A stretch of 64,000 bases of DNA from Variovorax sp. PBL-E5. GTDB lineage: Bacteria; Pseudomonadota; Gammaproteobacteria; Burkholderiales; Burkholderiaceae_C. Under the pieces are notes generated by a model, which made no database searches, was not told where the DNA came from, and worked only from the letters and a program-made list of their open reading frames with translations. The DNA is taken from the NCBI RefSeq assembly GCF_901827185.1, contig NZ_LR594671.1:3658001-3722000 (forward strand). The letters run 5' to 3'. Within the stretch, counting starts at the first letter, position 1; every line of letters starts with the position of its first letter. Positions 9,897-33,658 of the stretch are shown piece after piece. The position numbers were made by a program, and so were the translations under genes.

Positions 9897-11567
<1,671 letters not shown>

Positions 11568-14833: not shown

Positions 14834-15700
14834 TCAGACGGCGGCTGTGTTCGAAGCTTGTGTGTCGCGGGCCGGCGTCGCGCCGGGGCCCCCATGCGTG
14901 CGGCCCGCGGGCGGCGGCCGCAGGGCGGCGGCGCGCCAGGGCCATTGGCCGATGCCGGCCGCGATGCCGCGGAAATCGATGGCCGCCGGACTGGCGGGAA
15001 ATGCCTCCACCACGGTCTGGTGCAGGCGCTGCGCGTCCCGCAGATGCCGGTCGGCGCGGACCCCTCCGGCAGGCTGCAGCGAAACGGCGAGGTAGCGCCG
15101 GCTGGTGTCGACCAGGTTGGTCATCACCTGCGCGGCTTCGTCGCCCGCACCGACACCGTTGACGAGCAGCCGAAGCTGCTTGAGCGCGTGCGCGTAGTGC
15201 AGCCGCTTGATGCCCGCATAGGCCGCGGTGATGGATGCCGGCTGCGGCCGGAAGACGAGCACCAGGTCGTCCGCCTGCCGCGCCAGCATCGACAGGCAGC
15301 CTTCGCCGTCGAGCGCAGCGTCGATCAGGATCGCGCTGCCCTGCCACAGCGTGCGCGGGTCCAGGCCGGCCGGCTGCGCATCGGGGCGTGCGGGCAGCAC
15401 GCCGACACCGCAGTCCGACAGTGCCATGGTTTCTTCGCAAGCCAGGCGGCGTCCGGCGACATCGGCGAGCGTGCCCGATGGCGCGATCGACCACAGCGCG
15501 CAGGCGGATGCCGGTGTCGCGTCGTGCTCGTCCAGCAGCAGCACTTGCTTGCCTTGGTGGACCAGGGCCGCAGCAAGGTTCATCGCGGTGGTGGTGGCGC
15601 CGACGCCGCGGCCCATGCCGGCGACGGCGATCACGCGCGTGGGCGTGCGCGCCAGCAGGCGCCGCAGTCCATCGGCCTGGTCGGTGACCAGTTTGCTCAT
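14834..15700 (-). CDS. flhG: MinD-like flagellar-number ATPase FlhG (FleN)
   Basis: 288 residues of MinD/ParA fold. The deviant Walker A is GMGRGVGATTTAMNLA (about 29-43), followed by LLLDEHD and ILIDAALDG. FlhG restrains flagellar number together with FlhF. The signature Lys of the P-loop is replaced: GRGVGAT where MinD has GKGGVGKT, so ATP binding may be altered. A Pro/Gly-rich tail of about 30 residues ends it. The ATG at 15700 overlaps the stop of the 65-bp repeat's mini-ORF (ATGA), which also supplies a GGAGG site. Confidence 0.85.
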   Translation of the reverse strand: MSKLVTDQADGLRRLLARTPTRVIAVAGMGRGVGATTTAMNLAAALVHQGKQVLLLDEHDATPASACALWSIAPSGTLADVAGRRLACEETMALSDCGVGVLPARPDAQPAGLDPRTLWQGSAILIDAALDGEGCLSMLARQADDLVLVFRPQPASITAAYAGIKRLHYAHALKQLRLLVNGVGAGDEAAQVMTNLVDTSRRYLAVSLQPAGGVRADRHLRDAQRLHQTVVEAFPASPAAIDFRGIAAGIGQWPWRAAALRPPPAGRTHGGPGATPARDTQASNTAAV

Positions 15701-15762
15701 AAGACAACCTCCGCCCTGCGGGCTGCGGTGCGAGCGCCTTCGGGCGGCCGGGCGGCGCTCAT
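15697..15762 (-). repeat. 65-bp dispersed mini-ORF element, copy A (before flhG)
   Basis: On the minus strand this reads a 21-codon frame, starting MSAARPPEGARTAARR and ending AEVVL. Its stop overlaps the flhG start as ATGA, and GGAGG lies 9 bases before that start. Bases 15698-15762 match 33594-33658 with two differences over 65 bp. It contains CGCC-CGAA-GGCG, a small hairpin. flhF ends 30 bp upstream. Conservation of both the frame and the overlap in two unrelated junctions suggests a mobile or copied element that preserves expression of the next gene. That part is inference. Confidence 0.7.
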
Positions 15763-15792
15763 CGGTGCACTCCGGCTTTCATGGCGCGCGCC

Positions 15793-18174
15793 TCACCCAT
15801 GCTGCGCCATCGCCTCGGAGCGGCGGGTCGGTGCGGTGGATTCGGTGCCGAGCGCCTCGAGCAGCAGGAACAGCTTGCCGACGCCCCCGTACAGCGCGTT
15901 GCCGGTGAGCGGCCGGCTGGAGCGCACCGGCCGGCCGGTGAGCTGGTTCAGCAGCATGCGCGTGCGGTCGGCCCATTCGCCCTTCGCGTGCAGCAGGCGC
16001 CACACGGTGGTCGTCACCTGGCCGGCGATCAACAGGCGCTTCATCATGTGCGGATCGCCCGGCTCGCCGATGCCGCCGACCTGCTGCACGCCCTGGCGGA
16101 TCAGGCGAAAGCACGGCTCCGCCTCGGCGGCCCAGGCCTGCCACTGCGCGAGCTGCTGCGCGGCGACGCCGACGACGATGTTGGTGAGCAGATAGCCCTG
16201 CGCGAGGACCTTGCGGCCCTGCGCATCCATCACGCGCGTCACGACGCAGCGCAGCGCGGGCATCGCGGCGTCGCCGGCATCGGCCACGGCCGCGCCACGC
16301 AACACCACTTCGGCCTGCGCCTCGCATTGCCGCGCCGGCTTGCCGCGAAAGACCACCGGATGCGGCGGCGCGAAGTCCCAGTCCATGCGCGCCAGCGTGC
16401 GCGCGGCGCCGGAGCGCGGATCGATCACGCCGGTGGAGCCCGGTGCGCGCGCCAGCCACTGCTGGCCCTGGGCCTGCCACTGCACCATGAAGTCCGCACC
16501 GGGCAGCTTCGACAGCAGGTGCACCAGCGGCTTGCCGAAGTCCTGCCCGCGCAGCCAGGGGATCTGGCGCATGCCGGGCTTGCGCTTCGCGTCCGCGGCG
16601 CTTCCGCCCGCGGTCGCCGCGGTCGAGAGCCACTGGTTCGGCGCGGCCAGCGGCAGGCCGCTGCGATCGGACAGCATCAGGCTGCCCTGGCATTCGTAGG
16701 CATCGACACCTTCGTTGGAGCGCAGCCCGACCTGGCCGCACAGCGCCAGCACATGGGTCTCGCAGCCCGCGGCGATCTCGCTGCGCGCATGCAGCAGCAA
16801 GTCCTGCAGCACAGCCTTGTGGCCGGTGTCCTCGTCGGCCGCCTGCCGCCAGAGGCGGCGCGCCGCCTCGAAGCCGATCTGCGCGCCGGCCAGTGCGCCG
16901 GCGGCGGTCGCGAGTTCCTGCGCGTCGTGCGCCATCGCGCGGATCAGGTTCTGGTATTGCACGCGCAGTCGATCGGTCTCGGCCTGCGCCTGCACCACCT
17001 GCGCCGAGGACGCGGCGCCCGCGGGCTCGTCCTGCAGGTCGATCTCGGCCGGCACGAAGAGCGGGTTGTGGCGCCGCGGCTGGAACACGCTGTCGACCAG
17101 CTGCGCGCGGTCGGCCAGCATCAGGTTCTCGGGCACCTTCTGGCCGCTGGAGATGTAGTGCACCGGCAGGCGGTGACGGATCACCGTGTCGATCAGCGCG
17201 CCCGGATGCGTGGCCTCGTCGACCTTGGTGAAGATGCAGCCGGCCAGCGCATTGCCGCCACCGCCGTTGCGGTAGGCATGCACCACTTCGTTGAGCGTGT
17301 CGCCGTGGCTGGTCGCGTTGAGCAGCAGCAGCCGCTTGACCGGGCGATGGCTGTTGCACAGCATCGCGATCTGGTCGGAGACGGCGCGGTCGCGCTGGCT
17401 CATGCCGACGGTGTCGATCAGCACCATGTGCTTGTCGCGCAGGTCCTGCAGCACCAGGTGCAGGTCGGCCGCGTCCTTCACCGCATACACCGGCACGTCG
17501 AGGATCTGGCCGTAGATGCGCAGCTGCTCGTAGGCGCCGATGCGGTAGCTGTCGGTGGTGACCAGCGCCAGCTTGTCGGCACCGAAGCGCATGACGCAGC
17601 GTGCGGCGAGCTTGGCGGTGGTGGTGGTCTTGCCGACGCCGGTCGGCCCCATCAGCGCGTAGACGCCACCCTGCGCGAGCAGCGCATCCTCGTCCTCGTG
17701 CACCGGCACCGCGCGGATCAGCTCGGCGCGCGCGAAGGCCATGCCCTGCGCATAGCTCTGGCCGGTCGGCAGTCTCTCGAGCATGGCCTTCGACAGGCGC
17801 GCGCTGAAGCCGGCGCCGAGCAGCGTGCGCAAGAGGCGGCCGCGCACCGGGTCGCGGCGCTGCTTGTCGTTCCAGACGACGCTCGCGAGCTGTTCCTCGA
17901 TCATGCCGCGCATCGAATGCAGTTCGTTGAGCACCGTGTCGGCGGGCGCGGGCTGAATCGGCGGCGCGAGTGCCGGCGCGGACGTGGCGCCTTCCAGCGC
18001 TTCGGCCACGTCGCCATGCGCCATGGCCACGATCTCCACGCCGTCGGGCAGCGCACGGTTGGTCAGCACGATGGCTTCCGCGCCCAGGGCCTCGCGCACG
18101 AGGCGCAAGGCCTCGCGGCTGGTGGTCGCGACGAATTTGCGTGCGGCGGTGCGCACGTCGGTCGGGATGCTCAA
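15793..18174 (-). CDS. flhF: Flagellar GTPase FlhF with long C-terminal extension
   Basis: 793 residues, much longer than the roughly 370-480 residues usual for FlhF. The N-terminal region (1-160) opens with a B-domain-like start (ARKFVATTSREALRLVREALG). The SRP-type GTPase lies at about 170-375, with P-loop GPTGVGKTTTTAK (Lys182), LVTTDSYRIGAYEQL, DTVGMSQRD and TKVDEA. About 410 further residues match nothing I can name, yet show normal codon use. FlhF sets the place and number of flagella. The start is TTG at 18174, overlapping the flhA stop (TTGA) after GGAGGA; no ATG fits the position better. Confidence 0.88.
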   Translation of the reverse strand: MSIPTDVRTAARKFVATTSREALRLVREALGAEAIVLTNRALPDGVEIVAMAHGDVAEALEGATSAPALAPPIQPAPADTVLNELHSMRGMIEEQLASVVWNDKQRRDPVRGRLLRTLLGAGFSARLSKAMLERLPTGQSYAQGMAFARAELIRAVPVHEDEDALLAQGGVYALMGPTGVGKTTTTAKLAARCVMRFGADKLALVTTDSYRIGAYEQLRIYGQILDVPVYAVKDAADLHLVLQDLRDKHMVLIDTVGMSQRDRAVSDQIAMLCNSHRPVKRLLLLNATSHGDTLNEVVHAYRNGGGGNALAGCIFTKVDEATHPGALIDTVIRHRLPVHYISSGQKVPENLMLADRAQLVDSVFQPRRHNPLFVPAEIDLQDEPAGAASSAQVVQAQAETDRLRVQYQNLIRAMAHDAQELATAAGALAGAQIGFEAARRLWRQAADEDTGHKAVLQDLLLHARSEIAAGCETHVLALCGQVGLRSNEGVDAYECQGSLMLSDRSGLPLAAPNQWLSTAATAGGSAADAKRKPGMRQIPWLRGQDFGKPLVHLLSKLPGADFMVQWQAQGQQWLARAPGSTGVIDPRSGAARTLARMDWDFAPPHPVVFRGKPARQCEAQAEVVLRGAAVADAGDAAMPALRCVVTRVMDAQGRKVLAQGYLLTNIVVGVAAQQLAQWQAWAAEAEPCFRLIRQGVQQVGGIGEPGDPHMMKRLLIAGQVTTTVWRLLHAKGEWADRTRMLLNQLTGRPVRSSRPLTGNALYGGVGKLFLLLEALGTESTAPTRRSEAMAQHG

Positions 18175-20267
18175 ACTCTTCCTCCAAGGGTGGCGGTGAT
18201 CTTGATGTTGCGGGAGTCAGGGATCTCCGCATGGGACAGAACCTTCAGCTGCGGCAGGCTGCGGCGCAGGAAGCGCGACAGCAGCACGCGCAGCGGATGC
18301 TGGACGACCAGCACCGGCACCAGGCCCATCTGTTCCTGGCGCGCGATCGCGGCCTGCGCCTGCTGCAGCAGGCTGTCGGCAAGGCCCGGCTCGATGCCGC
18401 TGCTGTTGGTCATCGCCTGCTGCAGCACGCCGTCGAGCGAGCCGTCGAGGCCGATCACCTGCAGCTCGGTATCGCCCGGGAACAGCTGCTGCGTGATCGC
18501 GCGGCCGAGGGCCAGGCGCGTCAGCGACGTGAGCTCGGTAGCGTCCTTGACGCTCGGCGCATGCTCGGCCATGACGTCGAGGATGGTGCGCATGTCGCGG
18601 ATCGGCACCTGTTCGTCGAGCAGGTTCTGCAGCACCTTGTGCAGCGTGCTCAACGTGACGATTTTCGGCACCAGGTCTTCGGTCAGCTTCGGCGCCGTCT
18701 TGGCGATCTGGTCGAGCAGCTGCTGCACTTCCTGGCGGCCGAGCAGCTCGGCGGCATGGGTCTGGATCAGGTGGTTCAGGTGCGTGGCCATCACGGTGCA
18801 GGCATCGACCACCGTGTAGCCGTGGATCTGCGCCTGCTGGCGGTGCGTGCCGTCGATCCAGATCGCGGGCAGGCCGAAGGCCGGATCCTTGGTCGGCGTG
18901 CCGGGCAGCGTGCCGTTCACCTGGCCGGGATTGATCGCCATCCACTGGTTCGGGAAAGCCTCGCCGCGGCCGATCTCCACGCCCTTCAGGCTGACGATGT
19001 AGGCGTTGGGACTGATCTCGAGGTTGTCGCGAATGTGGACCACCGGCACCAGGAAGCCGATCTCCTGCGCGACCTTCTTGCGGATGCTCTTGATGCGGCC
19101 GAGCAGCTCGCCGTGCTGCGACTGGTCGACCAGCGGGATCAGGCGGTAGCCGACTTCCATGCCCAGCGGATCGACCAGCGCGACGTCGTCCCAGGTCGCC
19201 TCGGCCGGCTCGGCGGCCGTCGCGGCCGCGGCCTGCACCGCAGCGTCGGCGCGCTCGGCGGCCGCGAGCGGCTTGCGCATCAGGATGCGGCGGCCGAGCC
19301 AGCACAGGCCGCCGGCGATCAGCAGGAAGGCCAGGTTGGGCATGCCCGGGATCAGGCCCATCAGGCCGATGATGCCGGCCGTGAGGAACAGCACCTGCGG
19401 GTTGGAGAACAGCTGGCCGGTCAGCTGGCTGCCGACGTCCTCGTCGGTGGTCACGCGCGACACGATCACGCCGGCGGCGGTCGAGATCACCAGCGCCGGG
19501 ATCTGCGCCACCAGGCCGTCGCCGATGGCCAGCAGCGTGTAGGTCTTGCCGGCGGCCGAGAAGTCGAGGCCGTGCTGCACCACGCCGACCACCAGCCCGC
19601 CGATGATGTTGATGACCATGATCAAAAGGCCCGCCACCGCGTCGCCGCGCACGAACTTGCTGGCGCCGTCCATCGAGCCGTAGAAGTCGGCTTCCTGCGC
19701 GACCTCGGTGCGGCGCTTGCGGGCCACGTCCTCGCCGATCAGGCCGGCGTTGAGGTCGGCGTCGATCGCCATCTGCTTGCCGGGCATGGCGTCGAGCATG
19801 AAGCGCGCGCCGACCTCGGCGATGCGGCCCGCGCCCTTGGTGATCACCATGAAGTTGATCAGCACCAGGATGATGAAGACCATCACGCCGACCGCGAAGT
19901 TGCCGCCGACCAGGAAGTGGCCGAAGGCCTCGATCACCTTGCCGGCGGCGTCGGGCCCGGTGTGGCCGTGCAGCAGCACCACGCGCGTCGACGCCACGTT
20001 GAGCGACAGGCGCAGCAGCGTCGAGAACAGCAGCACCGCGGGGAAGGCCGCGAAGTCCAGCGCCTTCATCGTGTACATGCTGACCAGCAGCACCATCACC
20101 GACATCGCGATGTTGAAGGTGAACAGCAGGTCCAGCAGGAAGGGCGGCAGCGGCAGCACCATCATGCTCAGGATCATGATGATGAGCACCGGGCCGGCCA
20201 GTCCCTTGAACTGGGTGCCGGAGAACATCTGCGTCGGCAGACGCATCAAGTTGGCCATCGCGTTCAT
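18171..20267 (-). CDS. flhA: Flagellar type III export gate protein FlhA
   Basis: 698 residues. The first half is membrane-embedded, with about eight helices (MVLPLPPFLLDLLFTFNIA, VGGNFAVGVMVFIILVLIN). It has the family loops RIAEVGARFMLDAMPGKQMA and IDADLNAGLI, and GDAVAGLLIMVINIIGGL. The second half is the cytosolic substrate-docking ring (IWIDGTHRQQAQIHGYTVVD). FlhA couples ion flow to protein export. Its ATG overlaps the flhB stop (ATGA) and its own stop overlaps the flhF start. Confidence 0.96.
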   Translation of the reverse strand: MNAMANLMRLPTQMFSGTQFKGLAGPVLIIMILSMMVLPLPPFLLDLLFTFNIAMSVMVLLVSMYTMKALDFAAFPAVLLFSTLLRLSLNVASTRVVLLHGHTGPDAAGKVIEAFGHFLVGGNFAVGVMVFIILVLINFMVITKGAGRIAEVGARFMLDAMPGKQMAIDADLNAGLIGEDVARKRRTEVAQEADFYGSMDGASKFVRGDAVAGLLIMVINIIGGLVVGVVQHGLDFSAAGKTYTLLAIGDGLVAQIPALVISTAAGVIVSRVTTDEDVGSQLTGQLFSNPQVLFLTAGIIGLMGLIPGMPNLAFLLIAGGLCWLGRRILMRKPLAAAERADAAVQAAAATAAEPAEATWDDVALVDPLGMEVGYRLIPLVDQSQHGELLGRIKSIRKKVAQEIGFLVPVVHIRDNLEISPNAYIVSLKGVEIGRGEAFPNQWMAINPGQVNGTLPGTPTKDPAFGLPAIWIDGTHRQQAQIHGYTVVDACTVMATHLNHLIQTHAAELLGRQEVQQLLDQIAKTAPKLTEDLVPKIVTLSTLHKVLQNLLDEQVPIRDMRTILDVMAEHAPSVKDATELTSLTRLALGRAITQQLFPGDTELQVIGLDGSLDGVLQQAMTNSSGIEPGLADSLLQQAQAAIARQEQMGLVPVLVVQHPLRVLLSRFLRRSLPQLKVLSHAEIPDSRNIKITATLGGRV

Positions 20268-21406
20268 GCGGTCTTCAAGGAATATTGGAGCGATTCGGGA
20301 ATCGCCAGGTCGGTCGGCGTGCGCGGCGCCTCGCCGCCTTCGCTCTTCCAGCGCTTGAGCTGGTAGACCCAGGCCAGCACCTCGGCCACGGCGGTGTAGA
20401 GGCCGCCCGGGATCTCGTCGCCCAGCCGCGTGTGCTTGTAGAGCGCGCGCGTGAGCGGCGGCGCCTCGAGGATGGCGACGTTGTTCGCCACCGCGATCTC
20501 GCGGATGCGCGCAGCCACCAGGTCGGTGCCCTTGGCCACCACGCGCGGCGCGCGCATGTCGCTGTCGAGGTACTTGAGCGCGACCGCGAAGTGGGTCGGG
20601 TTGGTAACGACGATGTCGGCCTTGGGCACCTCGGCCATCATCCGGCGGCGCGCCATCTGCTGCTGCTGGCGGCGGATCTGCGCCTTGATGTGCGGATCGC
20701 CTTCGCTTTCCTTGTGCTCCTGGCGCAGGTCCTCGCGCGACATGCGCAGCTTGCGGTAGTAGCTCCACAGTTGGTAAGGCACGTCGATCAGCGCCACCAG
20801 CAGCAGCGTGGCCGCGATCAGCGCGCAGTTGCGCGCCACCAGCATCACGGTCTGCGGCAGCGCGGCGCTCACCGGCTGCGCCATCAGCGCCATCACGGCC
20901 TCGAGGTTGCCGACGATCACCTTGTAGGCGACACCGCCGATCAGCATCGACTTGACGAGCGCCTTGACCAGATCGGCCAGCGTCTGCGTGGAAAACATGC
21001 GGCCGATGCCGGCCAGCGGATTGAGCTTGCCGAAATTCGGCGCCACCGACTTGGTCGAGAACAGCCAGCCGCCCAGCATCATCGGCGCGACCACGGCCGC
21101 CACCACCATCATCGCGAACAGCGGCGCCAGCGCCAGCAGCGCCTGCAGCGCCATCAGGCCGGTGCGGGCCAGCATCTGCGAGGGATCGAAGGCCGTGGCG
21201 CGCTCGAACTGCAAGCCGTGGCGCAAGGCGCCGCCGAGGCTGCCGCCGAGCGAGCCGGCGCTGAACCACAGGCCGGCGATGGCGGTGCCCAGCATGACGA
21301 AGGTGGTCAGCTCGCGCGAGCGAGCCACGTTGCCTTCCTCGCGCGCCTTCTCCAGGCGCCGCGCGGAGGCAGGTTCCGTTTTCTCGAGATCGCTTTCCTC
21401 AGCCAT
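20264..21406 (-). CDS. flhB: Flagellar export switch protein FlhB
   Basis: 380 residues: four transmembrane helices, then a cytosolic domain with the self-cleavage motif NPTH (VVTNPTHFAVALKY). The N-terminus has EKTEPASARRLEKAREEGNV, typical of the family. FlhB switches export from hook to filament substrates on a signal from FliK. The ATG at 21406 has GGAG upstream. An overlapping 15-codon frame (21399-21446) ends inside the first codons. cheZ stops 133 bp upstream, with no clear terminator. Confidence 0.96.
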   Translation of the reverse strand: MAEESDLEKTEPASARRLEKAREEGNVARSRELTTFVMLGTAIAGLWFSAGSLGGSLGGALRHGLQFERATAFDPSQMLARTGLMALQALLALAPLFAMMVVAAVVAPMMLGGWLFSTKSVAPNFGKLNPLAGIGRMFSTQTLADLVKALVKSMLIGGVAYKVIVGNLEAVMALMAQPVSAALPQTVMLVARNCALIAATLLLVALIDVPYQLWSYYRKLRMSREDLRQEHKESEGDPHIKAQIRRQQQQMARRRMMAEVPKADIVVTNPTHFAVALKYLDSDMRAPRVVAKGTDLVAARIREIAVANNVAILEAPPLTRALYKHTRLGDEIPGGLYTAVAEVLAWVYQLKRWKSEGGEAPRTPTDLAIPESLQYSLKTA

Positions 21407-21539
21407 TCATGCTCCGAAAGAGCGCCGGCGAAGGACGCCTGCTCATGACTGATTATTGGATTCGGTGCGCCGGAACAATCGACCGATCAGGGCCGGCTTC
21501 GTCCTCCTTCTCGCTCAATCGGCTGCATGTCGCGCGGCC

Positions 21540-22202
21540 TCAGAAACCGAGGCTTTCGAGCAGGTCGTCGACCTGCGCCTGATCGGTCACCGCCTCGGGA
21601 TTGCCGGGGACGATCTGCGGGCCGTTCTGCAAGCTGGTGCTGACGGTGCTGACGGTGCTGACGGCCTCCGGGCGCCTCTCGATCGGCGCGTTGTCGATCA
21701 GCACCTGCAGCAGCTGCGTCTCGACATCGTTGACCACTTCCATCATCTTCTTGATGACCTGGCCTGTCAGGTCCTGGAAGTCCTGCGCCATCAGGATCTC
21801 CATCAGCTGGGTGTTGATGCCGCCGGTCTTCTGCGGCACCTCCTGCAGGTAGCCGCGCGTGTCGCGCACCAGCTCGCGCGCGTCGTTGAGCTCGATCGGG
21901 CTGGCGAACCATTCGTCCCAGCGCTTGCTGAGCGCCTTGGCATCCGCCGCCAGGCCTTCCTGCAACGGCTGCGCGGCATCGACCGCATTGAGCGCGCGGT
22001 GCGCCGCCCGCTCGGTCATGGCAGCGACATAGTTCAGGCGGTCACGCGCATCGGGGATCGCCTGCGCGGCCTTGGCCACCTCCTTGTCGAGCCCCAGCTC
22101 GCGCAGGCCTTCGCGCAACTGGCGCGTCAACTGCCCGATGCGGCCGAGCAACTGTTCGGCGGTGTTCCCCTGCTCCACGGTTTCGAACGCGTCGCGGTTC
22201 AT
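21540..22202 (-). CDS. cheZ: CheY phosphatase CheZ
   Basis: 220 residues, largely helical. The catalytic motif DFQDLTGQVIKKMMEVV carries the Asp/Gln pair of CheZ. The last residues, QVDDLLESLGF, are the CheY-binding tail almost as in enteric CheZ. A low-complexity linker (STVSTVSTS) sits before that tail. It removes phosphate from CheY, ending the tumble signal. It begins 1 bp after the cheY stop, so the two are coupled. Confidence 0.95.
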   Translation of the reverse strand: MNRDAFETVEQGNTAEQLLGRIGQLTRQLREGLRELGLDKEVAKAAQAIPDARDRLNYVAAMTERAAHRALNAVDAAQPLQEGLAADAKALSKRWDEWFASPIELNDARELVRDTRGYLQEVPQKTGGINTQLMEILMAQDFQDLTGQVIKKMMEVVNDVETQLLQVLIDNAPIERRPEAVSTVSTVSTSLQNGPQIVPGNPEAVTDQAQVDDLLESLGF

Positions 22203-22203
22203 G

Positions 22204-22602: not shown

Positions 22603-22653
22603 GATTTCTCCAACGGTTCAGTTCACTTCAGTTCGTCGTCCGGTGCGCGCGCG

Positions 22654-25279: not shown

Positions 25280-25336
25280 CTCGCGCAATGGCCCGATCAA
25301 CGTGACAAAAGCCCGGCAGATCGCGCGACGTCATGC

Positions 25337-26653
25337 TCAGCCCGGTGCCTCGGAGGTGTTCACGCCCTGCGTCCATGCCATCGCCCAGAGGTGCGCCGCA
25401 TTGACCTGTTCGGCACTGAGGAACAAGGCTTCCGACAGGCGCGCCGCATCGCGGGCGTCGCGTTCGCAGGTTTCGGCGAGCGCGAGGAAGGGGCCGTAGA
25501 TGCCGCCGCGCGCGAGGATCGCCTGCTGGACCGATTCGGCGAGCTGCACCTTGGCCAGCACTTCTTCCATCGGCACGCCCAGCAGCTGGTCGATCAGGGA
25601 AAACATGCCGACCACGAAGAGGTTGTCGGCGTCCCCGGCCGCCAGCATGCCCTGCCCCATCAGCTCGACGAAGCGGCCGCGCAGGATGGCCTGCTTCATC
25701 AGGTAGGGCGAGGCGGTCCGCGCATTGCTGGTGGCCAGCAGCAGCGAGAGCCAGCGGAACAGCGGCGAGTAGCCGAGCATGGACACCGCGTGCCGCAGCG
25801 AATGGATCTCGACGCCGACGCCGATGGCGGGCGAGTTGATGTGCCGCAGCAACTGGTAGGTCAGCACCGCATCGTGCTTGAGCGCGGACTCGATCTCGCG
25901 CACGTCGTCGTTGCGCCGGATCATCTGCATCAGCCGCATGATCAGGAGCGACTCCGGCTGCAGGACCTGATCGGTCTTCTTCAGCTGCGGCGGCGCCATG
26001 GCGCCGCCGACGAAGATCTCCAGGCGGCGCGCGGCGCAGGCGGCGAACTCTTCCCAGTTCGCGATCTGCGTCGCGATCAGGCGGACCGGCGCCGTGCCCG
26101 GCACCTGTGCGCCGCGCACCTCGGCGACGATGTCGGCGGCGCCGCTGCCGACATCGAAGTGCGTGACCAGTCCGCGCAACTCCGCTTCGATCGGGAGCGC
26201 CCGGCTGCGGCACAGCATCACGCCGTAGCCCTGCTCGCGAAGGAACAGGAGCGCACCCTGCACGTCCGGCTGCGCGAAGTCTTCCGGCCCCACGCACAGC
26301 ACCACGTTCTCGGGCGGCAGCGATTGCAGTTCGTCCAGCAGCAGCGAGTCGGCATCGATGTCCAGGAACAGCGCCGTGCGGCCCAGTCGCCAGCCGGTCT
26401 TGCGGTCGTTGAGATGCATGGCCACGCAAGCCAGAAGCGCCCGCAGGTGCGCGGCGGTGCCGGCCGCCTCGCCACCCGGCGCCGCGCACCAGGCCAGCCG
26501 ATAGCCGATCGCCTGCTTCTGCGGATCGAGCAGCGGCGTGGCGCTCAGGTAGCCGGCTTGGCCCGGCGCATCGCCGCGGCTGCGCGGCGGCGCGCCCGAT
26601 CCGTCGTGCACCACGGCGCCTTCGGACTGGCGACGAAAGAAGTCGAATCGCAT
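25337..26653 (-). CDS. Degenerate-EAL/HDOD-domain signalling protein
   Basis: 438 residues. The N-terminal half (about 35-230) has the outline of an EAL phosphodiesterase-type domain (GYLSATPLLDPQKQAIGYRL, FLDIDADSLL) but lacks an EAL catalytic motif. The C-terminal half is an HDOD domain (LLIMRLMQMIRRNDDVREI, HDAVLTYQLLRHINSPAIG, LRHAVSMLGYSPLFRWLSLL). Such proteins are non-catalytic regulators in cyclic-di-GMP and motility pathways. It sits between cheA and cheR, where cheW or a receptor often lies, and probably belongs to the chemotaxis operon. Start ATG at 26653 after GGGGATGTG. Confidence 0.85.
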   Translation of the reverse strand: MRFDFFRRQSEGAVVHDGSGAPPRSRGDAPGQAGYLSATPLLDPQKQAIGYRLAWCAAPGGEAAGTAAHLRALLACVAMHLNDRKTGWRLGRTALFLDIDADSLLLDELQSLPPENVVLCVGPEDFAQPDVQGALLFLREQGYGVMLCRSRALPIEAELRGLVTHFDVGSGAADIVAEVRGAQVPGTAPVRLIATQIANWEEFAACAARRLEIFVGGAMAPPQLKKTDQVLQPESLLIMRLMQMIRRNDDVREIESALKHDAVLTYQLLRHINSPAIGVGVEIHSLRHAVSMLGYSPLFRWLSLLLATSNARTASPYLMKQAILRGRFVELMGQGMLAAGDADNLFVVGMFSLIDQLLGVPMEEVLAKVQLAESVQQAILARGGIYGPFLALAETCERDARDAARLSEALFLSAEQVNAAHLWAMAWTQGVNTSEAPG

Positions 26654-26687
26654 CACATCCCCTTGTCGTATCTCGCAACGTGCAGGC

Positions 26688-28712
26688 TCAGGCCGCCACC
26701 GCGTCCATCCGGGCCGCGCCTGCCAGCGCCGCGGCGCCCGCCGCCCGCGCGCGCTGGATGCGCGGCATGGCGCCGACGTCGACGATGAAGGCGACGCTGC
26801 CGTCGCCGAGGATCGTCGCGGCCGAGATGCCGGGCACCTTGCGGTAGTTGGTCTCGAGGTTCTTGACCACGACCTGGTGCTGGCCGAGCAGTTCGTCGAC
26901 CAGGAGCGCGAAGCGCGCATCGTCGGCCTGCACGATCACCAGGATGCCCTGCGTCGGATCCGTCTGCGCGCCGCCGACGTCGAAGACGCGGTGCAGCTCG
27001 ATCAGCGGCAGGTACTCGCCGCGCACCTTGATCACGTGCCCGTCGCTGGTGATCGAGTGCAGATGCTCCGACCGCGGCTGCAGCGATTCGATCACGTAGC
27101 TCAGCGGCAGGATGTAGGCCTCGCGGCCGACCTTGACCGACATGCCGTTGAGGATCGCCAACGTGAGCGGCAGCACGATGCGCGTCGTGGTGCCATGGCC
27201 GCCGCGCGAGATGATCTCCACGTGGCCGCCCATTTCCTGGATGTTGCGCTTGACCACGTCCATGCCGACGCCGCGGCCGGAGATGTCGGTGATCTGCTCG
27301 GCGGTGGAGAAGCCGGGCGCGAAGATCAGCTGCCAGACTTCCTCGTCGGGCATGGCGTCGTTCACCGGCAGGCCTTGCTGCAGGGCCTTGGCAAGGATCT
27401 TCTCGCGGTTGAGGCCGGCGCCGTCGTCGCTGACCTCGATCACGATGTTGCCGCCGTGGTGCTGCGCGGAAAGCAGCAGTTGGCCGGTCGCGTCCTTGCC
27501 CTTGGCCAGGCGCTCCTGCGGCGTCTCGATGCCGTGGTCGAGGCTGTTGCGCACCAGGTGCGTGAGCGGGTCCACGATGCGCTCGATCAGACCCTTGTCG
27601 AGTTCCGTTTCCTTTCCGAAGGTGTCCAGGCGCACCTGCTTGCCGAGCTTGGCGCTGACGTCGCGGATCACGCGCGGGAAGCGGCTGAACACATAGTCCA
27701 TCGGCATCATGCGGATGGACATCACGGACTCCTGCAGATCGCGCGCGTTGCGCTCCAGATGGCCGAGGCCACTGAGGAAGCGCTCGTAGGCCACCGGGTC
27801 GAGCATGGTCGCGGCCTGCGTCAGCATCGACTGCGTGATGACGAGTTCACCGACCAGGTTGATGAGCTGGTCGACCTTCTCGACGTCGACGCGGATCGAG
27901 CTCGATTCCCTGGCGCCGGCGCCTGCGTTCGGTGTCGCGGGCGACGGCGGCGCGGGTCGGGCCGCGGCAGCGACAGCGGAAGCCGCGACCGCCGAGGGCG
28001 CGGCGACAACTGCGGGTTCGGATTCGACGGGCGCTTCGGCAGGTTCCGCCACGACGCCGATGTCGATCTGCGACTCGTCGATCAGGAAGCAGCACACGGC
28101 CGTGATGTCGCCGGGCTCGCAGCTGGTCTGCAGCACGACGGACAACTGGTCGCCGCTGCGCGTGCGCGACAGCACGCGGCCGAGGTTGCCGAGTTCGTCG
28201 GCGAGCAGATCGCATTCGCTGTCGGACAGGCGGGTGAAGCGCACCTGCAGTGCCCTGTCGCCCGCCGGTGCGGGCGCGGCTGCAGGCGCGGCGACGGGCG
28301 CCGGTGCGGGCGCGGCTTGCCGATCGCCGCTCTCGAGCGCGAGTTGTTGCAGCACTGCGCAGATGTGCGCGACTTTCTCAGGCTCGGGTTCTTTGCCAGC
28401 CTGGTAGGCAGTCAGTTGTTCTTGCAAGGCGTCCTTCGTTTCAAGAAATGCATCGATCATCGGAGCGCTCAGGCTCAGCTGGCCGTGGCGTGCCCGATCC
28501 AGGAGGGTTTCCAGCAGGTGCGTGGTGTCGGTCAGCGCGGCGAAGCCGAAGGTGGCGGCGCCGCCCTTGATCGAGTGGGCCGCGCGGAAGATGGCGTTGA
28601 GCTGTTCGCTGTCGGGTGCCTCGACGTCGAGCTCGAGAAGCAATTGCTCCATTTGCGCCAGAAGCTCGATGGCCTCGACGAAGAATGCTTGTGAAAACTG
28701 ACTGAGATCCAT
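26688..28712 (-). CDS. cheA: Chemotaxis histidine kinase CheA, cluster 2 (flagellar)
   Basis: 674 residues. HPt has His46 (FRAAHSIKGGAATFGF). A Pro/Ala linker and a P2 region with FLIDESQID follow. Dimer helices ([15 protein letters not shown]) precede the ATPase domain, with HLVRNSLDHGIET, DDGAGLN and [12 protein letters not shown], and the CheW-like domain ends the protein. It phosphorylates CheY and CheB of this operon. It lies 46 bp downstream of motB. No cheW neighbours it; the likely partner is at 62.5 kb. Confidence 0.95.
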   Translation of the reverse strand: MDLSQFSQAFFVEAIELLAQMEQLLLELDVEAPDSEQLNAIFRAAHSIKGGAATFGFAALTDTTHLLETLLDRARHGQLSLSAPMIDAFLETKDALQEQLTAYQAGKEPEPEKVAHICAVLQQLALESGDRQAAPAPAPVAAPAAAPAPAGDRALQVRFTRLSDSECDLLADELGNLGRVLSRTRSGDQLSVVLQTSCEPGDITAVCCFLIDESQIDIGVVAEPAEAPVESEPAVVAAPSAVAASAVAAAARPAPPSPATPNAGAGARESSSIRVDVEKVDQLINLVGELVITQSMLTQAATMLDPVAYERFLSGLGHLERNARDLQESVMSIRMMPMDYVFSRFPRVIRDVSAKLGKQVRLDTFGKETELDKGLIERIVDPLTHLVRNSLDHGIETPQERLAKGKDATGQLLLSAQHHGGNIVIEVSDDGAGLNREKILAKALQQGLPVNDAMPDEEVWQLIFAPGFSTAEQITDISGRGVGMDVVKRNIQEMGGHVEIISRGGHGTTTRIVLPLTLAILNGMSVKVGREAYILPLSYVIESLQPRSEHLHSITSDGHVIKVRGEYLPLIELHRVFDVGGAQTDPTQGILVIVQADDARFALLVDELLGQHQVVVKNLETNYRKVPGISAATILGDGSVAFIVDVGAMPRIQRARAAGAAALAGAARMDAVAA

Positions 28713-28758
28713 GGGGTGCTCCGAGGCCGGACCTTGATGCCGGTAGGGTGTCTTGCGC

Positions 28759-29703
28759 TCAGTTCGCCCGTGCCGGCGGCTTGAACGAGGTCAGCTTGAC
28801 GTTGTCTCTGGCAGGGTCCGCATTCGTCAATGTGCTGATCCGGGTGGTCTGTGCATCGCCGCTGTTCTCGCGCTCGATGCGTTCCTGCGTGCGGTGGTTG
28901 AGCACGATGACGCTGATGCGCCGGTTGATCGGGTTGCGCGGATTGACCTTGTCGAGGTGCATGCTGTCGGCCAGGCCCATCACGCGAAGCACCTTGTCCT
29001 CGTTCATGCCGCCCATCACCAGTTCGCGCCGCGAGGCGTTGGCCCGGTCGGCGGACAACTCCCAGTTGCCGTAGGACCTGTCGCCGTTGGTGTAGACGAT
29101 CGCGTCGGTGTGGCCCGACAGCGTGATCTTGTTCGGCAGATCGTTGAGCGCGGGCCCGAGTTCGCGCAGGATGGCCTGCATGTGCGGCACCACGCGTGCG
29201 CTGGCCAGGTCGAACATCGGGCGGTTGTCGCTGTCAACGATCTGCAGGCGCAGGCCCTCGGTCGTGATGTCGATCAGGATCTGCGAGCGGAACTGCCTGA
29301 AGACGGGACTCTTCTCGATCAGATCGTCCAGGCGCTTCTTCATGATGGCCAGCCGGTCGGCATCGGCCGCGTCGTCGCTCTGATTCTGGCGGTCGCCGTC
29401 GCTGTCGGCATTCTTGACCTCGCCGTCGGTTTTCACCACGTCGTCGCCGCCGCCCGGAATCATGCTGGTGCTGAGGCTGCTCTTCTCACCGCCGGCCAGC
29501 GCGACGCGCAGCGGCATGCGGAAGTGCTCGGCGATGCCCTCGAGCTGCTTGGGCGAGGAGATCGACAACAGCCACATGACGAGAAAGAACGCCATCATGG
29601 CCGTCATGAAGTCGGCGTAGGCGATCTTCCAGCCGCCGCCGTGACGGCCGCCGCTGCTGGGCGCCACGCGCTTGACGATGATCCGGGCTTTCTCTGCGCT
29701 CAT
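28759..29703 (-). CDS. motB: Flagellar stator protein MotB
   Basis: 314 residues. One membrane helix carries the proton-binding Asp31 (YADFMTAMMAFFLVMWLLS). A periplasmic linker follows, then an OmpA-like peptidoglycan-binding domain (LSGHTDAIVY and NWELSADRANASRREL). It anchors the stator to the wall and forms the ion channel with MotA. Starts 18 bp after motA. The C-terminus is about 40 residues longer than the peptidoglycan-binding domain. Confidence 0.96.
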   Translation of the reverse strand: MSAEKARIIVKRVAPSSGGRHGGGWKIAYADFMTAMMAFFLVMWLLSISSPKQLEGIAEHFRMPLRVALAGGEKSSLSTSMIPGGGDDVVKTDGEVKNADSDGDRQNQSDDAADADRLAIMKKRLDDLIEKSPVFRQFRSQILIDITTEGLRLQIVDSDNRPMFDLASARVVPHMQAILRELGPALNDLPNKITLSGHTDAIVYTNGDRSYGNWELSADRANASRRELVMGGMNEDKVLRVMGLADSMHLDKVNPRNPINRRISVIVLNHRTQERIERENSGDAQTTRISTLTNADPARDNVKLTSFKPPARAN

Positions 29704-29721
29704 GGCCGGGCACCCGTGGAC

Positions 29722-30582
29722 TCAGCGGGCCTTGACTTCCCGAACGTGGTCATCCAGTTCGGTGAAGGAAGGCCGCTCGGTCGAGAACAGCACCTTGCGG
29801 CCGAACTCGACGGCGAGCTGCGGCGCATAGCCATTCAGGCTCGCAAGCAGGGTGACTTTTGCGCACTGGTAGATCTTCATCGCCTCTTCGACCTTCTGGT
29901 CGATCAGCGAGGCCAGCGGCGAGACGAAGCCGTAGGCCAGCAGCACGCCGAGGAAGGTGCCGACCATGGCGTGCGCGATCAGCGCACCCATCTCGGACGG
30001 TGGCAGGTTGGCCGAGCCGAGCGCATGGACCACGCCCATCACGGCTGCCACGATGCCCAGGGCCGGCAATGCATCGCCCACACGGGCCAGGCTGTGCGCG
30101 GGCACTTCGGCTTCATGCCGGATGGTTTCGATTTCGTGGTCCATCAGCGCCTCGATCTCGAAGGCGTCGGTGTTGCCGCTGATCACCAGCCGCAGGTAGT
30201 CGCACAGGAACTCCATCACACCCGCGTCGGCCATGATGCTCGGGTAGCGGCCGAAGATCTCGCTTTGCGAGGGATCGTCGACATCGGCCTCCAGCTTCAT
30301 CATGCCGTCCTTGCGCGCCTTGGCCAGGAGTTCGTACAGCAGCGCCAGCAGGTCCATGTAGAGCTGGCGGTTGTGCCTGGACGAGCGCAGCAGGAGCGGG
30401 AGCTCCTTGATCGTCGCCTTGATGGTCTTGCCGTTGTTGCCTGCCACGAAGGCACCCAGCGCGGAGCCACCGATCATGAGCAGCTCCACGGGCTGGAACA
30501 GAACGCCGAAGTGCCCGCCCATGAGGCCGTAGCCGCCGAAGACGGCGCCCACCACCACGAGATACCCAACCAGAACCAGCAC
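29722..30582 (-). CDS. motA: Flagellar stator protein MotA
   Basis: 286 residues, four transmembrane helices, proton-type. Motifs are VGYLVVVGAVFGGYGLMGG, RPSFTELDDHVRE and the helix pair PALGIVAAVMGVVHALGS and VGTFLGVLLAYGFVSPL. The cytosolic loop contacts FliG. The start is GTG at 30582 with AAGGGGA upstream. flhC ends 63 bp upstream, so motA may be read from the flhDC promoter or a promoter in that gap; I found no clear sigma-28 site there. Confidence 0.96.
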   Translation of the reverse strand: MLVLVGYLVVVGAVFGGYGLMGGHFGVLFQPVELLMIGGSALGAFVAGNNGKTIKATIKELPLLLRSSRHNRQLYMDLLALLYELLAKARKDGMMKLEADVDDPSQSEIFGRYPSIMADAGVMEFLCDYLRLVISGNTDAFEIEALMDHEIETIRHEAEVPAHSLARVGDALPALGIVAAVMGVVHALGSANLPPSEMGALIAHAMVGTFLGVLLAYGFVSPLASLIDQKVEEAMKIYQCAKVTLLASLNGYAPQLAVEFGRKVLFSTERPSFTELDDHVREVKAR

Positions 30583-30645
30583 GTGCGTCCCCTTTTGCCA
30601 TCAGGCGTCAAAAATCAAAACATGGCGCCAGGCACATGGACCACG

Positions 30646-31254
30646 TCAGTGGATCCCTGCGCCAGCCGCCGACGGCTCGGCCGCGAACCCGGCGCCTGCC
30701 GGCGCAAGATCGGCAACCGCTTGCTCCGCGACGCGCTTGGCGCCGCGTGCCTTGCCTGCCCGGGACGGTGGGCGGCAGAGAACACAGACATAACCACTCT
30801 TGTTGTCGTGCGCATGGGCGACGAACAGGCCCTTGCAACGCGTGCAGCCGCTGAGCTGCAGCATGTCGCTGTCGAAGAAACGCACCATCGTGTAGGCGCG
30901 GGTGAAGTCGAGCACCACCTCGCCGCCGGCCGATTCGATCTGCTCGAGGTACAGCCGATAGCTCTTGATCAGGGCCTGAAGCTCGCCCTGGTCCGCCTGA
31001 TCCAGCATGAACCGATAGATGTTGTAGAACATCGACGAGTGGATGTTCGCCATCCAGGTCATGTACCAATCGGTGGAAAACGGCAGCAGTCCCTTGGGCG
31101 GAGAGACACCCTTCAACTCCTTGTAGAGCCGGATCAGGCGCTCACGACTGAGGCCCACTTCGGCTTCCAGGAACTGAAGGCGTGCGCCCAGTTCAATCAG
31201 CTCGATGGCCAACTGAACCTGGCGGACTTCGCCCAGGACGCTCTTGGAGCTCAT
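30646..31254 (-). CDS. flhC: Flagellar master regulator subunit FlhC
   Basis: 202 residues. The zinc-binding C-terminal part has two Cys pairs, CTRCKGLFVAH and YVCVLC. The N-terminal part has RQVQLAIELIELGARLQFLE and LIRLYKELKGVSPPKG. With FlhD it forms the FlhD4C2 activator of early flagellar promoters. The ATG overlaps the flhD stop (ATGA). A C-terminal Ala-rich extension of about 30 residues is typical of betaproteobacterial FlhC. Confidence 0.97.
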   Translation of the reverse strand: MSSKSVLGEVRQVQLAIELIELGARLQFLEAEVGLSRERLIRLYKELKGVSPPKGLLPFSTDWYMTWMANIHSSMFYNIYRFMLDQADQGELQALIKSYRLYLEQIESAGGEVVLDFTRAYTMVRFFDSDMLQLSGCTRCKGLFVAHAHDNKSGYVCVLCRPPSRAGKARGAKRVAEQAVADLAPAGAGFAAEPSAAGAGIH

Positions 31255-31592
31255 GCCAGCGCACCCACACCCTGCATCTGGCGCGCGGCCATGAGGATTG
31301 ACATGTGCGCGTGCTGCAGCGTCGCATCCTTGCCTTCGCCGACCACCGCGAACATCGGATGGTCGTCCAGGCGAAAGCTGCAGAGCAGAAAGTTCGACGC
31401 GGCCAGCTTGACGATCTGCGTCAGCGACATGTTCGCCAGCAGGTCGGCCAGCTCCTTGCCGACGCCCAGGCGGAGCATCGCTGCGGCCCGGTCCTGTTTG
31501 ACGAGTTTTTGCGCAAGCAGCATATAGGCCAAATTGATGTCGCTGATTTCTTTTGAAATCTCGCCATGAATTCCGCTCCTCTCGTTTTCCAT
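31251..31592 (-). CDS. flhD: Flagellar master regulator subunit FlhD
   Basis: 113 residues. The typical pattern is DINLAYMLLAQKLVKQDRAA, MLRLGVGKELADLL and MSLTQIVKLAASNFLLCSFR. The ATG at 31592 has a GGAGTGGAA site; a start six codons earlier has none. It is the first gene of the long minus-strand run flhDC-motAB-che-flh-fliA. The AT-rich region upstream is described separately. Confidence 0.97.
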   Translation of the reverse strand: MENERSGIHGEISKEISDINLAYMLLAQKLVKQDRAAAMLRLGVGKELADLLANMSLTQIVKLAASNFLLCSFRLDDHPMFAVVGEGKDATLQHAHMSILMAARQMQGVGALA

Positions 31593-31971
31593 TTCCACTC
31601 CGCACTCCATTCATCGAAACCGCAGTTTAAACACAAAATTTAACATGTTTAACAAAGGTAACTAAGCCATCTTGGAAAGTGAGACTTATCTGACATCACC
31701 GAGAGAACCTGTCCGACACAACCAACTCGTCGACACTCTGGGTGTAGTCCTAATTCATTCAAAATTCCGCTCACCCAGGTCTCATCAGTTTTTAGAAAAA
31801 AGTATTATTTCAAATTTAGTAACAAAAAGTACTAGTCTTAATTAATCAAGCATTTGCATGACGATTTTATTAAAAGGAAACAAAACGTATCAATTCAAAA
31901 AACAACCGTCAACGCCACGCCCGGAGTCCGCGTCGCACTTTTTTTCTTCTCTCCCGGCTTATATCGGCAGG
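31593..31971 (-). promoter_or_regulatory. AT-rich control region upstream of flhDC
   Basis: This 379-bp stretch has no gene and is strikingly AT-rich compared with everything around it, mainly 31621-31670 and 31740-31910. It holds the palindrome GTTTAAAC (31625-31632), an AACATGTT palindrome (31642-31649), and an imperfect direct repeat TTTAG...AAAAAGTAYTA at 31791-31807 and 31815-31834. It must carry the flhD promoter. I could not pick one -35/-10 pair with confidence. The gene on its far side reads in the same direction and ends at 31972, so any terminator for that operon also lies here. Confidence 0.6.
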
Positions 31972-32271
31972 TCAGTCGAAAACTGTAGGGCTCGCCGAAG
32001 ATTTGGCCGCGGCGTCGAGGCCATGGAGCCAGGCCATGATTTCGGCCACGGCAAGGTACAGCCGGGGCGGGATCTGCTGGTCGAGGTCGACCTGCATCAG
32101 AAGCCGCACCAGATCGGGCGATGCATGAACGTACAGGCCGTTCGCCCGCGCCTCGCGCATGATCGATTCGGCCACCACCCCGTAGCCCTTGGCCACGACC
32201 GTCGGTGCCCCGGCAGGGTCGGGACGAGACAGTGCCACGGCACTTTGGCGATCGTCCATTGCGCTGTTCAT
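31972..32271 (-). CDS. FlhB C-terminal-domain-like protein
   Basis: 99 residues that match only the end of the FlhB cytosolic domain: VVAKGYGVVAESIMREA, then SPDLVRLLMQVDLDQQIPPRLY and LAVAEIMAWLHGLD. There are no membrane helices, and the NPTH cleavage motif is absent (the protein begins just after where it would be). Small FlhB-tail proteins are known in several flagellated bacteria and can stand in for the cleaved FlhB fragment. The start overlaps the preceding FliK-like gene by ATGA. It lies next to that gene, so a joint role in export is likely. Confidence 0.8.
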   Translation of the reverse strand: MNSAMDDRQSAVALSRPDPAGAPTVVAKGYGVVAESIMREARANGLYVHASPDLVRLLMQVDLDQQIPPRLYLAVAEIMAWLHGLDAAAKSSASPTVFD

Positions 32272-33596
32272 GGCCGAGGCATTCCGGTGATCTGGAGATC
32301 CTGCAGTCGAAGACCGATCGTCTCGAGGCGGCGAGCCAGTGCACGGCCCTCCACCCGCAGATCGGCCAGCGTGCCCGGGTCGCTGGCCGCGACCTGCGCC
32401 TGCACCATCGGTTCTGCGAGGCTCAGACGCACATCCACGGCGCCCAGCCTCGGCAAGCTGAGCGAGAGCGTCGTCGTCCACCGGCGCGCGGGCGCTTCGT
32501 CCGTCGCACCGGCATGCCGGCCCGCGGCCTCGTCCTCGTTGTCTTCGCGGATGGACCACGCCATGGGTGCGCCGGGCCATGCCTCGCCGCTCCAGCGGAA
32601 GACGGCCGTGGCCAGAAGATCGAGCTGCTGGTGGACGATCGTCGCCGCCTGGGGATGAATGATGTCGGCAGGCGCCAGCGCCCTGGCCGCCCCGCTCGTC
32701 GCCGACACGCCTTCCGCGCCAGGCGCGGTGTCGGCCAGGCGATGCAGCGCCGCGGTGTCCAGCGCCGTTCCCGTCGCCACGGCATCGGTCTGGCGATAGG
32801 TTGCCTGCACGCGCACCGCATCGGCGCGAAGGGCGCCGGCGGCAGCGTGCGTTTCGGAAGGCGATGCAGCGACGCGTGGCGCGACGGCGCCGCGTTCCTC
32901 GGTCACGCCGGGCGGACGCGCGGCGGCCGGCGACGATGCGGCAGACTCGATGGACGCCGGTGCGTCGGCCGCTTCGGAGAGCAAGCCGGAGATTGCACCG
33001 GGCCCGCCATCGGCGACCGGCCATGCCGGGCTCGCACCCGGCGCCGCGCGCACCGGCGTACCGGCCGTCGTCACCTCAACGCGCGTTGGCATCGGTCGCG
33101 AAGACGCCGCAGCCGGCGCGCCCCAGGCCGCCTGCGGCTCCTGCGCGAGTTGCGCCAGCGTGCGCTGGCCGGCAGCGAACTGGGCCAGATGCGATTCGTA
33201 GAAGAGCCCGCTCACGGACACCGCTCGCGCCAGCGTGGACGCGAGTGCTTCGGCCGACGGCGTACTCGCGGAGGGCCAGACCGGCGCGGCGTCGCGCACC
33301 GGTCCCGCATCCGCCCGGATTTCCGCCAGCAGGACGCCAATCGCGCGTGCCGCCACGGAAAGCTGCGCGGCAGGCGCCGGCGCCATGGCCGGCTGCGACC
33401 CGGCAGGCGCGTCGGCGGCGATCTGCCGATCGAGCGCGGCGTTGGAAAGCAGGCGAGTGTCGTTGTCGACCTTCTGGGCCTGGATCACCGGCCCCGGTCC
33501 CGCGATCTCGACCTCGGACTTGATCGCCAGCACGTCCAGCCGCTGCGAAAGCTTCGCGGCGAGCAGCGTGTCGATCAGTCCGGTCAATCCTGTCAT
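32268..33596 (-). CDS. FliK-like hook-length control family protein
   Basis: 442 residues. A long Ala/Pro-rich middle is followed by a C-terminal part (about 350-435) resembling the FliK C-terminal domain: TTTLSLSLPRLGAVDVRLSL and VEGRALARRLETIGLRLQDL. A second, standard FliK is encoded at 43.7 kb. The ATG at 33596 overlaps a 65-bp mini-ORF element (ATGA). It is coupled to the FlhB-tail gene downstream, which suggests that the two act together in export switching. That is inference. Confidence 0.7.
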   Translation of the reverse strand: MTGLTGLIDTLLAAKLSQRLDVLAIKSEVEIAGPGPVIQAQKVDNDTRLLSNAALDRQIAADAPAGSQPAMAPAPAAQLSVAARAIGVLLAEIRADAGPVRDAAPVWPSASTPSAEALASTLARAVSVSGLFYESHLAQFAAGQRTLAQLAQEPQAAWGAPAAASSRPMPTRVEVTTAGTPVRAAPGASPAWPVADGGPGAISGLLSEAADAPASIESAASSPAAARPPGVTEERGAVAPRVAASPSETHAAAGALRADAVRVQATYRQTDAVATGTALDTAALHRLADTAPGAEGVSATSGAARALAPADIIHPQAATIVHQQLDLLATAVFRWSGEAWPGAPMAWSIREDNEDEAAGRHAGATDEAPARRWTTTLSLSLPRLGAVDVRLSLAEPMVQAQVAASDPGTLADLRVEGRALARRLETIGLRLQDLQITGMPRP

Positions 33597-33658
33597 AAGA
33601 CAACCTCCGCCTTGCGGGCTGCGGTGCGAGCGCCTTCGGGCGGCCGGGCGGCACTCAT
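33593..33658 (-). repeat. 65-bp dispersed mini-ORF element, copy B (before FliK-like gene)
   Basis: Second copy of the element at 15.7 kb. On the minus strand it encodes a 21-codon frame (MSAARPPEGARTAARK, ending AEVVL). The stop overlaps the start of the FliK-like gene as ATGA, with GGAGG just ahead. It differs from copy A at two of 65 bases: one changes Arg to Lys in the frame, the other is silent. fliT ends 16 bp upstream. Confidence 0.7.

Follow-up and report, generated by a model that had tools for sequence, protein, structure and literature searches.

A dispersed mini-gene element at operon junctions of Comamonadaceae and its possible role as a translational bridge

The repeat in the window and its family

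We analyzed a 64,000-nucleotide stretch of Variovorax sp. PBL-E5 DNA (contig NZ_LR594671.1, positions 3,658,001 to 3,722,000), referred to here as the window. It contains a short repeated element that lies between neighboring genes, encodes a mini open reading frame (mini-ORF), and ends on the start codon of the next gene. A preliminary description of the window had pointed to a near-identical repeat at two flagellar junctions, and alignment confirmed it. The two copies are 66-nt direct repeats on the minus strand with 64 identical bases (97%). As described before, one difference is silent (AGC/AGT, Ser) and one is conservative (AGG/AAG, Arg/Lys). Both copies have the 21-codon frame, the GGAGG site, and the ATGA overlap with the next gene. 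The genes downstream, flhG and a FliK-like gene, had also been named correctly; a third copy, of another subtype, had been missed (Table 1). The 3' 16-mer of the type A repeat, searched with up to 3 mismatches, has 2 matches in the window versus 0.11 expected, and 2 of 100 shuffles reach 2; the genome itself holds many further copies of the element.

Table 1. Element copies and adjoining genes in the window (positions counted from its first base)
Feature	Position	Strand	Remarks
Copy 1, type A; mini-ORF MSAARPPEGARTAARRAEVVL, then stop	15697..15762	-	Start ATG 15762-15760; stop TGA 15699-15697 overlaps the flhG start
Tiny ORF, MKAGVHR, then stop (7 codons)	15759..15782	-	Between the flhF end and copy 1; stop overlaps the mini-ORF start (ATGA)
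flhG-like gene, MinD/ParA-type ATPase in FlhG position	14837..15700	-	Begins within the right ATGA of copy 1
Copy 2, type A; mini-ORF MSAARPPEGARTAARKAEVVL, then stop	33593..33658	-	Stop overlaps the FliK-like gene start
FliK-like gene, Flg_hook domain	32271..33596	-	Start overlaps the copy 2 stop
Copy 3, type C, 81 nt	7497..7577	+	Left ATGA is the response-regulator gene stop; right ATGA is the STAS gene start
STAS-domain gene (Pfam STAS_2)	7574..7858	+	Downstream of copy 3

The element is a dispersed family and is not specific to flagella. Pattern and DNA searches of the PBL-E5 genome (7.09 Mb, four contigs) gave 34 distinct copies coupled to a start codon. This count may be a lower bound, with 40 first-look candidates scored per search. 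Five subtypes are present (six copies of type A, seven of B, ten of C, eight of D, and three of E); they mostly share a common 5' part and differ in their 3' parts. The earlier idea of a copied element holds. The two near-identical flagellar copies, just 18 kb apart, could suggest a local duplication inside the flagellar cluster. However, the chromosome has four more type A copies outside the cluster, including one flanked by RNase HII and SpoU-type genes, and this origin is ruled out with practical certainty.

The core of the element, allowing up to 2 mismatches, occurs in 82 of 91 Variovorax genomes, that of PBL-E5 included. In an even sample of the family it is found in 108 of 399 genomes and 57 of 141 genera, some of these matches lacking the left TGA. 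It was found in none of 59 genomes from other families of the order, and a reversed control pattern gave zero matches. Exact matches in named genomes were obtained in at least 118 stretches; among the matches listed are Variovorax, Rhodoferax, Acidovorax, Hydrogenophaga, Pelomonas, Xenophilus, Pseudorhodoferax, Ramlibacter, and Rubrivivax. One type E query found no match in phages, and the six loci searched gave 0 Rfam matches at the gathering threshold.

From left to right, the element consists of a left NTGA, a head (encoding MSAAPGRPKQAR in most subtypes), a hairpin-rich middle, a run resembling a Shine–Dalgarno (SD) sequence, a spacer of usually 4-8 bases, and a right NTGA. The SD-like run is GGAGG, GAAGG, AAGGG, or GTGGGGG, depending on the subtype, and the whole is mostly about 60-90 bp. 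The right NTGA is the start of the next gene; the left one is usually the stop of the upstream gene. Hairpins are observed in the folded subtype representatives. In these representatives the two ends of types A, C, D, and E are not paired together, and those of type B are partly paired. In about 24 of the 34 PBL-E5 copies a long open frame stops at the left TGA, as read by eye from frame length and third-position GC content.

The flanking frames correspond to known protein families. Within a chosen subset of 20 flanking proteins, 9 of 10 upstream and all 10 downstream proteins have Pfam matches. The supported pairs include IleRS/signal peptidase II, FKBP/LytB-IspH, ZapD/YacG, RNase HII/SpoU, IcmF-type/TagF, and ABC/GDPD. 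On a V. paradoxus plasmid in GenBank, the annotated gene ends coincide exactly with both ends of the element, which is itself unannotated.

The hairpin core is also found in reverse orientation, where it gives a different mini-ORF (for example, one beginning MTPPRSSLRVSLPPEGA) at junctions (L373, L387, L396, L400, L402, L312, and L313; L and G numbers are our handles for loci and genomes). Eight reversed copies of the PBL-E5 genome were read. L396, L400, and L402 bridge and L389 comes close to an overlap; L391 and L401 continue reading, and L403 and L404 lack a bridging frame. Paraburkholderia and Burkholderia plasmid records contain related reversed cores. Where the core forms apparently intergenic arrays, in two other genera of the family (L319-L323, L325, and L326), the spacings are not restricted to multiples of three.

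Reading phase, codon changes, and Shine–Dalgarno strength

Among the 34 copies in the PBL-E5 genome, 27 have a 4-nt overlap with the next start and three have a 1-nt overlap (L005 after an internal frameshift). Two are fused in frame with the next gene (L012 and L093). Named genomes gave 119 distinct copies. These comprise 105 mini-ORFs that bridge, 17-58 codons long (with a 4-nt overlap in 101 and a 1-nt overlap in four), 11 that read into or past the next gene, and three that are cut or masked, a classing revised from a first one of 107, 5, and 7. For 13 of the bridging copies, the frame that opens at the right start has fewer than 60 codons and is often a second mini-ORF in tandem. Thirty congener copies, read by eye, include 26 that bridge, three that are fused, and one that is masked.

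Because these phase tests follow the frame, we also located the right end by its SD-like motif, with the frame unused. This test began with 184 distinct copies, from which 35 without a recognized right end were left out. Of the remaining 149 copies, 135 are in the 4-nt phase, 11 in the fusion phase, and three in the third phase. The three third-phase calls look like motif errors, since the frame reading gives a 1-nt overlap for L135 and 4-nt overlaps for L159 and L170. Some of the 11 fusion-phase calls are motif errors as well (L114 is a 4-nt overlap). The phase is held across subtypes, lengths, and orientations, and the translational-coupling geometry proposed in the preliminary description is therefore kept.

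Body and spacer lengths compensate each other in type D. A body of 81 bases is mostly followed by a spacer of 5 or 8 bases, and a body of 82 by a spacer of 4 or 7. As a result, 32 of 36 type D copies are in phase versus 19.1 with shuffled spacers, and 0 of 20000 shuffles reach 32. For type C the figures are 29 of 30 versus 26.2 (P 0.002). Since the copies are related and so not independent of one another, these shuffles do not give strict probabilities.

Copies with nested inserts of about 72-87 nt (L202, L213, L225, L228, and L239) keep a frame of 50-58 codons up to the next start. In-frame fusions to the downstream gene, which are predicted to be N-terminal extensions, are found at L117, L120, L127, L139, L149, L203, L207, and L244.

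It appears that the phase is kept and not the peptide, because the codon changes look neutral. In the middle part, the ratio of nonsynonymous to synonymous substitutions is at the neutral expectation, obtained by placing the same changes at random, in all four length groups. The subtypes, the internally frame-shifted D variants, and the reversed copies encode unrelated peptides. On these two grounds we rejected a conserved peptide, and the selection on the peptide that the preliminary description had allowed for is not supported. A peptide that is itself functional and copied as a coding unit would fit the preserved frame. It would also fit the 5' part (MSAAPGRPKQAR) common to most subtypes, with its excess of synonymous changes in two of the four groups when all changes are counted. 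However, with single counting of each change no group shows this 5' excess, and the 5' set carries a bias, since that very sequence served to find the copies. We regard a functional peptide as very improbable.

SD strength was compared in 95 of the 149 copies, all of them in the 4-nt phase and flanked by good open frames. The computed free energy averages -8.1 ahead of the right start; the corresponding values are -5.5 for the left NTGA and -2.8 for random positions. Where the insertion hit an overlap, the sequence before the left NTGA is the one that natively precedes the downstream start. The SD of the element is stronger by more than 0.5 in 64 of the 95 copies and weaker in 25. From the energies on the two sides, it seems that the element hands the native SD to the mini-ORF and offers its own SD to the next gene. 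An effect of the element on the output of the downstream protein is thus plausible.

Filled and empty junctions and candidate movers

The orthologous sites that lack the element are mostly plain start-stop overlaps. One comparison of filled and empty junctions gave 57 candidate pairs, many of which are tandem copies or the same junction repeated. At flhF-flhG, 27 of 30 Variovorax loci have no insert; judged by eye, these are 17 GTGA overlaps, nine spaced junctions, and one ambiguous case. The PBL-E5 junction resembles the spaced empty group. In G008 a variant element, 62 nt from start to start, sits exactly in the overlap, and in G052 a 20-nt remnant survives as an in-phase ORF of 7 codons.

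Among the 57 candidate pairs, we read the following as clear. A thioesterase (ybgC-type) gene is preceded by the element in PBL-E5 and has an empty junction at L175 and L190; a second junction is reciprocal, filled in the genomes of L175 and L190 and empty in PBL-E5. L155 is filled where the fliF-fliG joint of the window is empty, and L196 is filled where L170 is empty, at an ftsL-type junction. These fliG, ybgC, and ftsL junctions are presumed to be such from their sequences, save for a Pfam hit. At ileS-lspA, PBL-E5 is the sole filled locus among 27 visible junctions (30 fetched), and the empty ones are mostly 1-nt overlaps.

The fkpB-ispH junction has been filled repeatedly. Seven of 30 Variovorax loci carry an insert here, of five kinds if the two D forms are counted as one. 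PBL-E5 has type D, G013 has a D-like insert fused to ispH, G041 and G011 have reversed elements, G045 has an E-like insert, and G025 and G031 have two different 12-codon inserts. In six of these loci the insert closes with ATGA at the start of ispH; the insert of the seventh is fused, and none is in the third phase. The 23 empty loci comprise 19 NTGA overlaps and four spaced junctions. Because the inserts differ in sequence and one is in the other orientation, this junction is the strongest evidence for selection on phase.

The element has NTGA on both sides, whereas overlapping empty sites have one NTGA, and the left and right N differ in some copies. This pattern fits either a short target duplication or a site-specific insertion beside NTGA. 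In the ispH copy of PBL-E5, the left GTGA matches that of the most similar empty sites and the right ATGA has been gained; the reverse holds for the flhG copy of G008. For a longer target duplication, the 5 bases before the right start were compared with those before the left start. Type D shows no excess of matches, and types E and C show a slight excess over shuffles (P 0.046 and 0.004).

There are two candidate movers, a Y1 transposase gene and an insertion sequence (IS) of the IS110 family. The Y1 gene resembles the tyrosine transposases (RAYTs) associated with repetitive extragenic palindromic (REP) sequences. It is present as a single copy in 53 of 56 Variovorax genomes (G000:C1:1157296-1157625 in PBL-E5). 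Four genomes have the Y1 gene without a core match (G036, G040, G052, and G054), and three have the core without Y1 (G018, G022, and G035); the G018 and G022 assemblies are 88-89% complete. With subtypes A-E as the only queries, a search of about 3 kb on each side of the gene at 20 Variovorax loci found no copy within about 0.8 kb. The nearest are a 24-nt partial match 0.9 kb away at one locus and copies 2.7-2.9 kb away at three loci. Variovorax is named in another connection in a RAYT paper (PMC2817692).

The IS110-family IS is about 1.47 kb long. At four places in the PBL-E5 genome it is inserted precisely at the element's left NTGA, with an ATGA on its own upstream side (L013, L018, L037, and L041; L101-L104). 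In place of a mover, we read it as an IS that seems to use the element as its target. The use of REPs as targets by ISs is described in PMC1525189. The end of this IS, GGAGGTTGCCTT, resembles the 3' end of the type B element.

Apart from the element, the window contains direct repeats of at least 300 nt near its right end (59127-59448, 60906-61227, and 63182-63503), which are 95-99% identical. This triple repeat resembles, in inverted form, a stretch near 11220.

Explanations and known systems

We think it probable that the element is a mobile repeat, similar to REPs or to miniature inverted-repeat transposable elements (MITEs), and that operons tolerate it because it serves as a bridge for translation. 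Such repeats of Comamonadaceae would enter start codons, mostly NTGA overlaps within operons, leaving NTGA on both sides. The mini-ORF would open on or just after the upstream stop, carry hairpins and an SD, and close on the downstream start. Ribosomes leaving the upstream gene would be passed through the mini-ORF to the next gene, and the operon would therefore be neither uncoupled nor polarized by the insertion. Selection would keep the reading phase, as a 4-nt or 1-nt overlap or an in-frame fusion, and not the peptide. We infer translation of the mini-ORF, re-initiation as its mode of action, and coupling as the cause of the phase conservation.

Several observations weigh against a bridge. 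Ten of the 34 PBL-E5 copies have no adjoining long upstream frame (four abut the IS, and there are six others). In copies 1 and 2 of the window the left ATGA lies some bases downstream of the upstream stop, with no direct overlap. Two of the 34 copies are broken, L031 by a nonsense codon and L017 by the loss of its end; the preliminary description had considered frames broken as often as not, and also the absence of further copies, and neither is what we find. Nonsense changes show a deficit in type D alone, and there only if recurrent changes are included in the count. Compensation is absent from type E (74 of 83 in phase versus 74.3 shuffled), in which the spacer of most copies is 6 bases. 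The length of a subtype is inherited from its founder, and copies are thus not independent trials of phase; the independent evidence is limited to the different subtypes, the insertions and deletions, the spacer compensation, and the recurrent junction. In G191 and G184, genomes of two other genera of the family, the core stands in arrays that are apparently intergenic and lack NTGA ends, so bridging is not its sole habitat.

Some of these points would follow if the element were an ordinary REP or MITE whose phase reflects a founder effect and the choice of target, with no selection for translation. The tandem arrays in the two other genera, the modal length of each subtype, and the missing compensation in type E all agree with this, and insertion at NTGA would by itself fix the left and right codons. 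However, it does not account for the compensation of body and spacer lengths in type D. Nor does it account for the copies that still bridge with nested inserts, or for the fkpB-ispH inserts of 12, 20, and 29 codons and the reversed type, which are all in phase or fused. We consider this explanation unlikely. The element could instead be a recruited regulatory cassette, in which the mini-ORF, the SD, and the hairpin tune the amount of the downstream protein. An SD stronger than the native one in most copies, the SD-like runs before the right start in the subtypes, and the repeated insertion at fkpB-ispH speak for a cassette. Against it stand the 25 copies with a weaker SD, the lack of a shared function among the downstream genes examined, and the patchy presence among species at any one junction. 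Tuning of this kind is possible, though we have doubts about it. It is compatible with the bridge and would add a benefit to it, and the tolerance of a mobile repeat is a simpler reading than the setting of protein levels.

A bolder version is that the integration of this class of mobile elements is aimed at start-stop overlaps (NTGA at start codons) and that the element is a transposable translational coupler. It would move the native SD onto the mini-ORF, supply a new SD to the downstream gene, and so, as it spreads, continually rewire protein ratios in operons across the Comamonadaceae. We put this forward as a speculation that is rather less than likely to hold. The bridge itself suggests how operons could stay intact with a dispersed repeat inside them, the repeat being a legal link between genes. 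Operon junctions with and without an inserted coupler within one genus form a natural library, whose evolution could show what rules termination-reinitiation follows and whether genes need to overlap tightly. The element would also account for unannotated gaps of 60-90 nt and for odd N-terminal extensions in gene models of Comamonadaceae.

Several known systems share some of these features. Rickettsia palindromic elements (RPEs), as presented in the excerpts of PMC2229807 and PMC10969869, are likewise small dispersed repeats with an open frame that occur in a coding context and form in-frame fusions. In the same excerpts they lie within genes as well as between them, whereas the element here is usually at the joint of two genes, with its own stop, SD, and start. 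In-frame insertion within genes is a trait of RPEs; here the main class lies between genes, and a minority is fused downstream. Like REPs, the element is short, bears hairpins, and has many copies, and the RAYT-like Y1 gene is widespread in Variovorax (53 of 56). REPs carry a conserved GTAG-type tetranucleotide at the foot of the hairpin. They are extragenic by name, whereas most copies here are frames that span the whole joint between two genes. No copy lies within about 0.8 kb of Y1 at the 20 loci, and the presence of the gene does not track that of the element.

MITEs with ORFs, such as the enterobacterial repetitive intergenic consensus (ERIC) and the 107-bp form of the Correia element, are similar in their non-autonomous size, their ORF fusions, and a possible target duplication of a few bases, as far as the excerpt of PMC2229807 describes them. 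Unlike these, the element seems to lack a clear terminal inverted repeat, judging from the folded representatives, and is placed at start codons. The genome paper of Polaromonas JS666 is cited in a review for a MITE. The axe-txe minigene, in the part of PMC8708949 that describes it, is also a mini-ORF that influences the translation of a neighboring gene; it is a single locus there, whereas here we observe a dispersed repeat family. Full-text searches of open-licence papers in PubMed Central, aimed at the element, its kind, and related elements, brought up no description of it; one may exist elsewhere. What sets it apart from RPEs, MITEs, and REPs is the niche at gene junctions, with a start, an SD, and a stop that keep the neighboring genes linked.

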